This document shows, in pieces, positions 11,735 through 56,065 of a stretch of 64,000 nt of DNA. How positions within the stretch are numbered: the first letter of the stretch is position 1; each line of letters opens with the position of its first letter. The position numbers and the translations under genes are program-made. The stretch is taken from contig NZ_AP027080.1 in assembly GCF_030295405.1 (NCBI RefSeq), positions 2,604,001-2,668,000 of the forward strand, in the 5' to 3' direction. Below the pieces are notes generated by a model. The model was given only the letters and a program-made list of their open reading frames with translations, made no database searches and was not told the DNA's origin. The stretch comes from Mesoterricola silvestris. GTDB taxonomy: Bacteria > Acidobacteriota > Holophagae > Holophagales > Holophagaceae.

Positions 11735-13042
11735 ATGCCCCTCAAAGGTCTCTTCCTCGATCACCTCGCCACCCGCATGGCCTACGCGGAAAAGGCCTTG
11801 TCGGCCACGGGCTTCGACGCCCTGGTGATCTCCAGCGGGCAGCCGTTCACCTATTTCGCCGACGACCAGGACGCCCCCTTCAACACCGTCCCCCACTTCC
11901 GCCACTACTGCCCCCTCACCGGCCCCCACCACGTGCTGGTCCTGAAGCCCGGCGCGAAGCCCATGCTGGTGCGGTACGCCCCCGAGGACTTCTGGTACGA
12001 GCAGCTGCCCCTGGGCTCCCCCTTCTGGGCCGAGGGCTTCGACCTGGTGGAGGCCCCCAGCCTCGACGCGGTGTGGGAAAAGGTGGGCCAGCCCAAGCGG
12101 GCCGCCTACATCGGCAATGAAACGGACCGGGCGGCCGCGGCCGGCCTGGAGCTGAACCCCGCTTCCATCACCGCCTTCCTGGACTGGGGCCGCAGCTACA
12201 AGACCCCCTACGAGATCCACTGCATCGAGGAGGCCACCGTCACCGCCGCCCTGGGCCACGCCGCCGGCCGCAAGGCCTTCCTGGCCGGCGCGTCGGAGCT
12301 GGAGATCCACTACGCCTTCATGGAGGCCGTGGGCTGCCTGGAATTCGAGCTGGCCTTCGCCTCCATCGTGGCCCAGAACGAGAAGGGCGCCACCCTCCAC
12401 TACGAGAACAAGCGCAGCTTCCGAGGGGGAAACACCCTCCTCCTGGACTGCGGCGCGCGCCACCTGGGCTACGCCTCCGACATCACCCGCACCACCCCCG
12501 CCCCGTCCTGCGATCCCCGCTTCAAGGCCCTGGTGGACGGCATGGAAAAGAACATGCTGGAAATCTGCGCCGCGGTGCGCCCCCACATGCCCTTCGGCGA
12601 GCTGCACCACTTCTCCCACCTCAAGCTGGCCGGGCTCCTGAAGGAGCATGGCCTGCTCGACGCCGACCCCGAGGAGGCCGTGGCCCTGGGCCTCACCCGC
12701 CCCTTCTACCCCCACGGCCTGGGCCACCACCTGGGGATCCAGGTGCACGACGTGGCCGGCAAGCTCGCGGGCCCCGACGGCAGCATCGCCCCGCCCCCCG
12801 CAGGCCACCCCACCCTGCGCACTACCCGCACCACCGAGCCCGGCCACGTCATCACCATCGAGCCCGGCCTCTATTTCATCCCCATGCTCCTGCGCCCCTT
12901 CCGGGAAAACGAGCACAAGGCCCGCTTCGACTGGAAGCTCATCGACGAACTTTCCCCCAACGGCGGCATCCGCATCGAGGACGACATGCTCGTCACCGAA
13001 ACCGGCGGCCGCAACCTGACCCGGAAGCACCTGCCCAACTAG
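11735..13042 (+). CDS. pepQ: Xaa-Pro dipeptidase PepQ
   Basis: A 435-residue M24-family aminodipeptidase that splits dipeptides ending in proline, close in length to E. coli PepQ (443). The pita-bread fold motifs are present: LLLDCGARHLGYASDITRTT (two metal Asp), PHGLGHHLGIQVHD (metal His and catalytic His), TIEPGLYF (Glu) and GGIRIEDDMLV (Glu). There is no signal peptide, so it is cytoplasmic. The ATG at 11735 follows GGAG by 6 bases. It would finish degradation of peptides released by the secreted peptidases encoded around it; that link is inference. Confidence 0.93.
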   Translation: MPLKGLFLDHLATRMAYAEKALSATGFDALVISSGQPFTYFADDQDAPFNTVPHFRHYCPLTGPHHVLVLKPGAKPMLVRYAPEDFWYEQLPLGSPFWAEGFDLVEAPSLDAVWEKVGQPKRAAYIGNETDRAAAAGLELNPASITAFLDWGRSYKTPYEIHCIEEATVTAALGHAAGRKAFLAGASELEIHYAFMEAVGCLEFELAFASIVAQNEKGATLHYENKRSFRGGNTLLLDCGARHLGYASDITRTTPAPSCDPRFKALVDGMEKNMLEICAAVRPHMPFGELHHFSHLKLAGLLKEHGLLDADPEEAVALGLTRPFYPHGLGHHLGIQVHDVAGKLAGPDGSIAPPPAGHPTLRTTRTTEPGHVITIEPGLYFIPMLLRPFRENEHKARFDWKLIDELSPNGGIRIEDDMLVTETGGRNLTRKHLPN

Positions 13043-13603
13043 GGTGATGGCCGCGTAGGCGGCCGTGTCCCGGACCTCCGCCCCGGTTCGTTGGCGCAGG
13101 CAAGCTGCGCCAACGGAAGGGCGCCTCCTTGGGACTGCGGAGGCGTGCTGCCGCATCCATCCTCCGATGGGCGGTGGGGCCGGGGACGGTCATGGGGCTC
13201 CCCTGGAGGGCCTATGCCCATTGGGCACGCTGCGAGTGATCCGGGAGCAGGTTGCTTGGCGCCGACGTTGACGTGTGACGGCGGCATGGGAAATTGGGAA
13301 TTGGGCTCAAGGACAGTCCAAGGCGCACGGTAGGCCGGGCATGGCCAAGCATTCAACGTCGGCGCGACCCGGTCGCCATCCCGGAACACTTGAAGCGGGT
13401 CGAGGGGCCCTAGGCCCATCCGGAGAGCCCACCCCCCCACCCGGGCCGCATCGCCCATCGAAGCCGGAGCGTGCCAACACCCACCCTCAACCTATCGTCG
13501 CGAGCTTTTCGCTGACGCAGCTTGCCTGCGTCAGCGAATCCCTGACGACGGTCCGGAACCCGCACGATGGCACACCAGGCCCGGAGGGAGATGTTCCGTT
13601 CCG
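13043..13603. repeat. Family 2 palindromic element, copy 1
   Basis: A 561-bp gene-free gap between convergent pepQ and the papain-like protease gene. It begins GTGTCCCGGACCTCCGCCCC and has a perfect hairpin at 13090-13114 (10-bp arms, loop GCAAG). A second hairpin near the other end at 13508-13538 has 13-bp arms around CTTGC. The middle holds GGCGCCGACGTTGA (about 13258), which is also found in the copy at 54889-55369. The end sequence and layout match that copy, so this is a repeated element rather than random spacer. Confidence 0.75.
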
Positions 13604-14602
13604 CTAGTCCACGACCCACGCGGGGGCCGTCCCCACCGAGTTGGCGCCGTACTTGATCCACATGAACCCGTTGATGCCCCACTGGCTGCTCCAGGAGTTC
13701 TTGAGGAGCCAGGCGCCCTTGGCGTCGTCCCAGCCCACCAGCAGGACGGCGTGGTTGGGCTGGTTGCCCCGGGAGGTGCCGGTGAAGACGCCGCGGCGGT
13801 AGGCCTGGAAGGCGGAATCCGCGTAGACCCCGATGCTCACGGAGCCCCACTTGTAGATGGCGGCCTTGATGGCGCTCACCGACGGGACCGAGTAGCCGTT
13901 GCCCACGTAGCCCCACTGGGTGACGGGGGTGTAGGACGTGTCGAGGCTGAAGCTGCAGGCGACGCGGTTGGACACGTAGGGGAAGGCGGTGGCGGGGACG
14001 GCGCCCTGGTAGTAACCCGCGCCCCGGTTGGCGTTGGCGGGCATGAGCATGTCGTAGGAGTACCAGCCTCCCTGGCAGCCGTAGCCGTCGGGGTTGCAGC
14101 TGAGCACCTGCTGCTCGGAAAGGGTGGTGATCACGCCGCTGGGGGTGATGGAGCCGTCCGCGTTGACCCGGCCCTGGGGGGCGCCGTGCTTCTTGAGGGC
14201 GGCGCCCTCGAGGTTGCCGATGGTGGCGAAGGCCCAGCAGGAGCCGCACTGGCCCTGGTCCTTGACCGGGCTGAACCAACCCGTGAACGCGGCGGGGAGG
14301 GGGGTGGCGGCGAGGTCCTCCACTTCGTTGTTGAGGTGGCCGCCCTGGGCGTGGGAGGCGAAATCGTACTGGCGGAGCTCGGGCCGCAGGCCGCAGAGCT
14401 GGTCGAGGCTGTACTGCATGGCGGGGTTCACCCCCACCTCGAAGTCCCGGCCCTCCTCCCGGAGCTCCCGGCGGATCTGGTCCACCCGGCTGATGAGCTG
14501 GGGGTCGAACTGCTGCACGCCGTGCTCCTGGGCCGCCAGGAAGGACGGGGCCGCCAGGGCCAGCGTGAAGGCGAAGGTGGAAACGAGGGGAGACTTGTTC
14601 AT
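13604..14602 (-). CDS. Secreted papain-like cysteine protease (C1A)
   Basis: A 332-residue secreted protease. After a signal peptide (FAFTLALAAPSFLAAQ) and a short pro-region, the mature domain begins near FTGWFSPVKDQGQCGSCWAF, the papain oxyanion Gln and catalytic Cys. PNHAVLLVGWDD carries the catalytic His and LLKNSWSSQWGINGFMWI the Asn. The pro-region lacks a full ERFNIN inhibitor. The start is the ATG at 14602 with CGGAG upstream; the open frame extends 79 codons further with no conserved content. It is divergent from the S9 peptidase gene, which suggests extracellular protein use as nutrient. Confidence 0.93.
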   Translation of the reverse strand: MNKSPLVSTFAFTLALAAPSFLAAQEHGVQQFDPQLISRVDQIRRELREEGRDFEVGVNPAMQYSLDQLCGLRPELRQYDFASHAQGGHLNNEVEDLAATPLPAAFTGWFSPVKDQGQCGSCWAFATIGNLEGAALKKHGAPQGRVNADGSITPSGVITTLSEQQVLSCNPDGYGCQGGWYSYDMLMPANANRGAGYYQGAVPATAFPYVSNRVACSFSLDTSYTPVTQWGYVGNGYSVPSVSAIKAAIYKWGSVSIGVYADSAFQAYRRGVFTGTSRGNQPNHAVLLVGWDDAKGAWLLKNSWSSQWGINGFMWIKYGANSVGTAPAWVVD

Positions 14603-24767: not shown

Positions 24768-25024
24768 CCCCCGCCGCCCCCACGCCCCCGGCCGTTCGCA
24801 GAAGCGGGCGTCCGGGGGCGTTCCCGTGGGGGGCGAGGGATGAAATCCCTTGAAATCCCTGTTCCCCCCAATCCGCTTTGAAGCATTAACCGGGTAATTA
24901 ACCAGCGGGGGGAGCCCGGGTTGTCATCGCGTGCACCGTGGCATGGTTGACAGACGTCCAGAAGGAATTTGGCCGCGAAGGGCAACCCGCCCGACCTGCT
25001 CAAGGCCCCGGTCTCGGGCATTTT

Positions 25025-25173
25025 CATCCCCTACATCCTGTACATCCATTTCATCCCTGTTCCCGCAGGGCCAGAGCTGGGATGGGTCGGCGCATGCAGA
25101 TCAACTGCGCGCCGCCCCACCCCATCGCTGGCCCTGCGGGAACAGGGATGAATAGGATGCAAAGGATGAAGGG
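25025..25173. repeat. Large palindrome, family 1 copy C
   Basis: Lies in the 540-bp gap between convergent sdhB and the CapA-like gene. The arms run from CATCCTGTACATCC inward through CATCCCTGTTCCCGCAGGGCCAG and are answered by CTGGCCCTGCGGGAACAGGGATG on the right, with TGGGTCGGCGCA at 25083-25094 near the centre. It shares inner-arm sequence with copy B but differs in its outer arms. The rest of the gap (24768-25024, 25174-25307) shows no gene. Confidence 0.82.
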
Positions 25174-25307
25174 GATCAGCCGTAGAACTCAGCCCGTTCC
25201 CGGCTGAGGAGCCTGGCCGTGGTTGTCATGGGGTGGCTATCTGTTGGCTTCGGCAGTGGTAGTTAGGGTGGGTCGGAAACCTGCGCTAAGGGTTCAAGCC
25301 ATGCCCC

Positions 25308-54468: not shown

Positions 54469-54888
54469 ATGGGTTTCCGAATCAAGGCGTTCGCCGCGAC
54501 GGCCCTGGCCGTCGCGTCCCTGTGGGCCGGGGATCTCGCCCCCGACCAGCAGGCCAAGTTCATCAAGATCCTGGCCAGCAGCGCCGGTTCCGCCGGCAAG
54601 GTGGCGTGCAGGGACGCCGCCCTGGCCGGGGAGCTTGCCAAAATGGGCGTGGCCAACGACGCCGGCGCCAAGGTCGCCTGGGCCGGCTCCGAGGCCGAGG
54701 TGAAGAGCCTCAAGGCCGCCGGCAGGCTGGTCATCTGCGGCCGGGTGGAATGGCTCGCCGCCGGCGGGAGCATCGCCATCGTGGATGAGGGCGGCAAGCC
54801 CCAGATCATCCTAAGCATGGGCAACATCGCCGCCTCCGGCGTGACGCTCTCGGATGCGGTGCTCAAGATCGGGAAGAAACTGAACTAG
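54469..54888 (+). CDS. Small secreted YfiR-like (DUF4154) protein
   Basis: A 139-residue exported protein. The signal peptide (FAATALAVASLWAG) is followed by QQAKFIKILASSAG and a C-terminal GGSIAIVDEGGKPQIILSMG, NIAASGVTLSDAVLKIGKKL. This pattern is like the periplasmic YfiR/DUF4154 family, some of which restrain diguanylate cyclases. The resemblance is moderate and the protein is shorter than YfiR. ATG 54469 follows GGGAGG. Located after a chemotaxis receptor on the same strand. Confidence 0.65.
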   Translation: MGFRIKAFAATALAVASLWAGDLAPDQQAKFIKILASSAGSAGKVACRDAALAGELAKMGVANDAGAKVAWAGSEAEVKSLKAAGRLVICGRVEWLAAGGSIAIVDEGGKPQIILSMGNIAASGVTLSDAVLKIGKKLN

Positions 54889-55369
54889 GAGCCCGGCTAC
54901 GTAATCGTACGTGTCCCGGACGTTCGCCCTGTTTCGTCCTCGCCGGCCAAGCCGGCGATGACGGGGGGGTGCGGAAGGGACGTCGGGGCTGTGCTACGCC
55001 CAACCCACTTCGTTGAGCGGATGGGAGTCCGGAAGGAAATGGCTCTCCTGGAAGGCCCAGGCGAGGAGAGCGGCTCCCATGGGTTCGTGGGTTTGCTTCG
55101 CGATGGCCCTCTCGGTGCCGGTGGGCGCCGACGTTGAATGGTTTGTGTTGAAGGCCCGGTCCGAGACGAGGGCGCTTTCACTGATTAGCGTTGGCGCGGT
55201 CCAATGGCCTCCTCGCAGCACTCGAAGAGAGGCCCCGAGGTGGGTCGGGGCCAATGGGTGAAAACACAGGCCCAACCATGGGGTGAGAGCCTTCCGTTGC
55301 TGCGGGCTTGGCCCGCAGCAACGAACCGGGGCGGAAGTCCGGGACACGTGCGATTACGTTGCGGGGCTC
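54889..55369. repeat. Family 2 palindromic element, copy 2
   Basis: A 481-bp gene-free block filling the gap between two convergent genes. Terminal inverted repeats of about 53 bp begin at the stop codons on both sides (CTAGGAGCCC..., then TACGTAATCG / CGTGTCCCGGAC) with only a few mismatches. Inside each end is a hairpin: CGCCGG-ccaag-CCGGCG on the left (about 54947-54963) and GTTGCTGCGGG-cttgg-CCCGCAGCAAC on the right. The core carries GGCGCCGACGTTGA. Sequence and layout match 13043-13603. Confidence 0.85.
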
Positions 55370-56065
55370 CTAGCTGAGGATCGGGTGGTGCAGGGCCAGC
55401 CCGCTCAGGACCCGGCCCCCGGAGGCGGGGGGGTTGTCCAGGCTCGTCCAGAGGAGGGCCTTGGCCACCTGGGAGGCCTCGATGGGGGCGTACCGCCAGA
55501 GGAAGCGGGAGCGGGGGGCCAGGTACCGGGCGGCGGCCAGGTAGGGCTTGGCCAGGAGGAGGGCTCCCAGGCGCTCGGCGAGGCGGAATTCCTCCCGGTC
55601 GCCCAGGAGGAGGGAGGGGCGCGCGATGAGGTAGGGGAGGCCGCTGGCCACCAGGACCTTTTCCACCTCGGCCTTGGTTTCCAGGTAGAGTCCCCGGGGG
55701 TGGCCGGCGCCGGCGGCGGAGACCAGGGCGAAGGCGGGACGGGTGGGGAGCGCGGCGAGGCGGGTGATGAGGGCGGCGGGGTAGCCCAGGTCCACCTCCC
55801 GGAAGGCCGCGGGGGAACCGGCCTTCTTGAGGGTCGTGCCCAGGGCGCAGAGGAGGAGGTCGCAGGGGATCTCCGTGCCCAGGCGCTCCAGGTCCGCGGG
55901 GGAGCGGTAGTCGAAGGTGGCCTCCTTCACCCGGCCCGACAGGGACCGCAGGGAGCCCGCACGGCGCACCAGGGCCGTGAATTCCACATCCTTGCGCGCG
56001 TCCAGCTGGCGCACCAGCTCCCGGCCCACGAGGCCCGTGGCCCCGGCGATCACCACGTTTCTCAT
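55370..56065 (-). CDS. NAD(P)-binding protein (HTATIP2/atypical SDR-like)
   Basis: A 231-residue Rossmann protein: RNVVIAGATGLVGRELVRQL at the start, CALGTTLKKAGSPAAFREVD, FALVSAAGAGHP and YLETKAEVEKVLVASGLPYL (a YxxxK-type helix). This is the pattern of the HTATIP2/YbjT-like atypical SDR family. The role is unknown. The ATG overlaps the ftsW stop by 4 bp (ATGA), so it is coupled to a cell-division gene. Confidence 0.85.
   Translation of the reverse strand: MRNVVIAGATGLVGRELVRQLDARKDVEFTALVRRAGSLRSLSGRVKEATFDYRSPADLERLGTEIPCDLLLCALGTTLKKAGSPAAFREVDLGYPAALITRLAALPTRPAFALVSAAGAGHPRGLYLETKAEVEKVLVASGLPYLIARPSLLLGDREEFRLAERLGALLLAKPYLAAARYLAPRSRFLWRYAPIEASQVAKALLWTSLDNPPASGGRVLSGLALHHPILS

Follow-up and report, generated by a model that had tools for sequence, protein, structure and literature searches.

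A 481-bp element lying between two facing genes in the genome of Mesoterricola silvestris is very probably a non-autonomous, MITE-like transposable element that duplicates a YTAR/CTAG target on insertion. The element was identified in the window, the 64,000-nucleotide stretch analysed here, which represents positions 2604001-2668000 of G000:C1, a single-contig genome of 4.99 Mb with protein relatives in the family Holophagaceae, phylum Acidobacteriota. It is short and without a transposase gene, is bounded by terminal inverted repeats, and belongs to a family of dispersed copies for which duplicated CTAG or TTAG sites, empty sites in relatives and an excess at gene 3' ends were observed. The coordinates and the facing stop codons given in the original prediction were exact. 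The features of the element and its surroundings are as follows:

54469-54888, plus strand: upstream facing gene, DUF4154/YfiR-like (weak match, below the cut-off)
54885-54888: left CTAG, target-site duplication (sequence and TSD table); TAG at 54886-54888 is the stop codon of the plus-strand gene
54889-55369: element, 481 bp, no recognisable coding capacity (100% identity to itself, 68-96% to family members)
54889-54906, plus strand: left outer terminal repeat GAGCCCGGCTACGTAATC, also present in a second element family, MITE-B
54911-54921, plus strand: left core motif GTGTCCCGGAC, where conservation within the family is highest
54935-54963, plus strand: left subterminal hairpin CGTCCTCGCCGGCCAAGCCGGCGATGACG, with one C-A mismatch
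55295-55323, minus strand: right subterminal hairpin CGTTGCTGCGGGCCAAGCCCGCAGCAACG, perfect
55337-55347, minus strand: right core motif GTGTCCCGGAC
55352-55369, minus strand: right outer terminal repeat GAGCCCCGCAACGTAATC
55370-55373: right CTAG, target-site duplication (sequence and TSD table); CTA at 55370-55372 is the stop codon of the minus-strand gene
55370-56065, minus strand: downstream facing gene, NAD(P)-binding protein
13043-13603: diverged second copy within the window; the CTAGs at 13039-13042 and 13604-13607 carry the stop codons of the two genes facing it

Each arm of the element consists of an outer repeat (about 18 bp), the core GTGTCCCGGACNTTCGCC and a hairpin, in that order, an arrangement repeated in the copy at 13043-13603. 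The ends are inverted, as had been predicted; the arms are imperfect and exceed the predicted length of about 53 bp, extending over 77 nt (54880-54956 versus 55302-55378) with 81% complementarity. An internal open reading frame of 117 aa (54994-55347) gave no Pfam match.

The family comprises at least 60 copies in the host genome, in which a search with the 54889-55369 element as the query returned 96 alignments. The survey covered 1.15 Mb around known copies, together with arm-pattern counts over the whole genome. At least 131 arms matched the pattern with up to three mismatches, against one match for a reversed control pattern, and the five congeners gave 0-6 matches apiece. Paired arms mostly delimit elements of about 420-560 bp, and a few of 110-125 bp are nearly pure palindromes. 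Single copies with the family ends were detected in the congeners G001, G004 and G005, with CTAG at both edges in G001 and G004 and at the right edge in G005. The plasmid and phage collections that were searched contained no match to the element. Pairwise identity across 48 elements was highest in the core and hairpins (0.73-0.82), lower in the interior (0.57-0.68) and lowest in the outermost 14 bp (0.39-0.40), the part that a transposase must read, which is a point against mobility. At one of the mini copies (G000:C1:2280381-2280440), a predicted facing gene seems to read into the element, and its C-terminus may be element-derived.

The position of the family with respect to YTAR was found to be precise. 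In 24 of 118 arms, YTAR is located exactly 14 bp beyond the arm model, compared with about 0.2 per offset farther out. In the copies at 2658889 (the window element), 4572928, 1919888, 4328505 and 2988831, the two ends have identical YTAR sequences (CTAG or TTAG) at this 14-bp distance or no more than one base away from it, and a clean duplication at both ends is missing in most older copies. Measured from the arm model, the junctions form two classes, one at 13-15 bp and the other at about -2 to 4 bp. In the short class, the stop codon lies directly at GNATCG. This class may have arisen when inserted copies lost their outer end, or it may stem from an earlier element with different ends or from use of the arm by the host; gene order shared with G004 supports the view that some of these are true junctions.

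Genes of the host genome contain almost no CTAG, which is mostly intergenic or part of a stop codon, and insertions therefore land at harmless positions. In the 1.15-Mb sample (G+C content 68.9%), CTAG was counted 425 times, whereas trinucleotide frequencies predict about 1,180; of the 425 sites, 168 serve as stop codons and 42 lie within genes. This distribution accounts for the facing stops at the ends of the element. In the same sample, convergent genes flank 92 of 135 arms, and most others adjoin the 3' end of one gene, figures that describe the copies rather than an unbiased genome average, the sample having been built around known copies. We infer that the position pattern was shaped both by the scarcity of CTAG in genes and by the purging of harmful insertions. 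Where convergent genes overlap by exactly four bases, the overlap sequence can be YTAR only, and duplication of such an overlap gives each gene its own intact stop codon.

Empty sites were identified in relatives. At locus 1919888, the host genome reads GGGGCTAG-element-CTAGCCGTGGTATCC, whereas G004, the closest relative, reads GCCGCTAGGCCGTGGTATGC with a single CTAG. At locus 2258380, the convergent genes of G004 overlap by CTAG, and the host genome contains 556 bp with weak arms. The orthologues of the two genes flanking the window element overlap by TTAG in the metagenome-assembled genome UBA692 (L083), but in G004 they are separated by 128 bp with no 4-bp overlap, and the ancestral state at this locus is therefore not fixed. 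The site of the second window copy is occupied in G001 by a short interval carrying a hairpin.

The original prediction also described a paired exchange of hairpin arms between the two window copies and attributed such matched changes to selection on structure. The exchange is real, and covariation in a larger alignment, whose absence was to count against the claim, proved significant. In 37 distinct hairpins of the host genome, 97.1% of cells were standard pairs, and the covariation score of 0.520 exceeded that of shuffles (0.153; 0 of 500 reached it), which kinship alone can also bring about without structure, and that of slid structures (0.04-0.14), which fell short as well. A separate count on 33 distinct stems agreed with this result. 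Both-sided changes numbered 85 and one-sided changes 1 in the 407 cells of the 37 hairpins, and among 47 distinct hairpins there were nine A-C mismatches and two G-T pairs. An RNA helix should tolerate G-U, and G-T is expected to be common where a transcript is selected to fold. Given the near absence of one-sided and G-U states, the covariation does not imply an RNA function. A constraint on the hairpins, or their repair, at the DNA level is favoured, whether by extrusion, transposase recognition or template switching, which the data do not separate; a DNA hairpin or template-switch repair fits the pattern at least as well as RNA function does.

The matched changes are thus established, but they are not proof of selection, as template switching explains the pattern too. 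Repair of palindromic DNA by template switching, without structural selection, is a strong contender that falls a little short of being the probable cause, and it is compatible with a mobile element. Template switching during replication has been reported to make multi-base compensatory changes (PMC8794818), and the near absence of one-sided changes and of G-T intermediates agrees with this mechanism. One unique stem is present in both arms of element 4957617, and a pair of mini copies take the form of long, almost perfect palindromes. However, selection by a transposase or on a cruciform yields an identical pattern, and the two stems within one element, left and right, are on average no more alike (0.706) than stems of different elements (0.717), so that arm-to-arm copying is not a general process. 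On the same values, concerted evolution of an element's two hairpins was rejected as a general rule. Long-range pairing between the arms was also set aside as independent support, the paired fraction being 84.7% versus 82.2% in shuffles with no rise in double changes; subfamilies can explain it.

For the mobile-element reading, it is proposed that a transposase supplied in trans would recognise the inverted ends, join the element to YTAR, mostly CTAG, and cause those four bases to be duplicated. Judged from the target and the duplication, the enzyme would most likely be of the IS5 type, for which the target duplication is YTAR (PMC10359306), and the hairpins would act at the DNA level. The 4-bp YTAR duplication of the IS5 family was found, and ends matching an IS5 element of the host genome were not. 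An IS5-family insertion sequence is present in the host genome (L179, L180 and L219) with CTAG at both edges, the left CTAG containing the TAG stop of a gene; its copies were rejected as the partner, their ends (GGGCTGTCGGCAAACC) being unlike those of the 54889-55369 family. This element (1063-2568 of L179, G000 ~139.0-140.5 kb) has its CTAG edges at gene stop codons and carries a GxxExxY passenger gene, and the transposase of the L219 copy is internally deleted. The original prediction had suggested looking for a transposase with matching ends, and the searches made revealed none. The family shares its outer 17 bp, GAGCCTG[GT]CTACGTAAT, with MITE-B, a non-coding element of about 270 bp in the host genome and G004; they were not seen on a transposase-bearing element. 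One unseen transposase may move both the 54889-55369 family and MITE-B. Copies of MITE-B include G000:C1:140465-140731 and 4051114-4051378, and variants occur in other Holophagaceae genera.

Mobilisation by a transposase of the IS630 type instead of the IS5 type is rather unlikely. An IS630-family element of G004 (G004:C1 ~742306-744170) has CTAG at both edges and adjoins a family copy, but it ends in TGTAGGCCGCCAGAA, unlike the family ends GAGCCYGGCTACGTAAT and GAGCCTGKCTACGTAAT. An IS630-type partner within the host genome was rejected, as no DDE_3 match was found there. The G004 element contains its own GxxExxY gene, and it sits exactly at the right CTAG of the family copy and is followed by MITE-B.

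Because the outer ends are the least conserved part and the junctions form two classes, later co-option by the host was also considered. The arms, comprising core and hairpin, could have become 3'-end boundary elements of convergent genes, serving termination, transcript protection or collision control, and this is a doubtful addition to the mobile-element reading. If it were true, the core and hairpins would be kept while the outer transposase ends decay, and flanking genes would adopt stops inside the arm.

A folded RNA or bidirectional terminator selected at the 3' ends of convergent genes is a very unlikely origin of the family. The element folds far better than its shuffles (z -9.3), the hairpins covary, the core and hairpins are conserved above the interior and ends, and copies lie directly behind stop codons. 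Against this, A-C mismatches outnumber G-T pairs, no Rfam match reached the gathering score, and the element is almost missing from congeners. The arm hairpins are not followed by a T-run, and a terminator scan gave one weak site inside the element, with 0.5 expected. A native terminator hairpin is retained alongside the element at 1931228 and 1921589. The original prediction had left a folded RNA and a transposase-recognised end side by side; the empty sites, the duplicated CTAG and the dispersed copies support the latter, and the pair counts speak against the former. Movement of a REP/REPIN-like palindrome by a RAYT (Y1) transposase is extremely improbable, for although the copies are extragenic and palindromic with hairpins in inverted pairs, Y1_Tnp was not found in the host genome, the unit size is about 500 bp, and a CTAG duplication is not expected of Y1 enzymes.

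Several known systems resemble the family. MITEPsy1 of Pseudomonas syringae is an IS5-like, non-coding MITE with inverted ends that start with G and a 4-bp duplication of CTAG or YTAA (PMC3189936). MITEPsy1 is 100 bp long, has ends of 18 bp and occurs in few copies, whereas the present elements measure about 110-560 bp, have hairpin-bearing arms of about 70 bp, and account for more than 100 arms, most of them located at the 3' ends of genes. In Rhodococcus equi, TnRErm46, a member of the IS481 family, also targets CTAG; the TAG that it duplicates provides target genes with their stop codon, and some of these genes remain uninterrupted (PMC6794481). It differs in being an autonomous resistance transposon of another family, with an NCTAGN duplication and different ends. 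Chunjie (Geobacter), QMITE2 (Coxiella) and RUP (pneumococcus) are likewise intergenic miniature elements with tens of copies; QMITE2 is mostly located in 3' untranslated regions and RUP clusters with other elements (PMC10969869). Their sequences and targets are unrelated to those of the 54889-55369 element.

The principle is known already from TnRErm46 and MITEPsy1. The target choice of the 54889-55369 family is instructive: a tetranucleotide that is avoided in genes yet common at stop codons offers a harmless landing site, at which an element can slip between two facing genes with neither being broken. At least three unrelated types of end with CTAG edges occur in the genus, namely those of the 54889-55369 family, the IS5-type and the IS630-type elements. 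Each insertion creates two new CTAG sites, and elements can therefore pile up there. The paired hairpin arms, in which one-sided changes are nearly absent, provide a natural data set for comparing structural selection with template-switch repair. Another dispersed inverted repeat, CATCCCTGTTCCCGCAGGGCC ... GGCCCTGCGGGAACAGGGATG, was also observed between convergent genes, at 24768-25307 of the window and at ~50-260 of L219.
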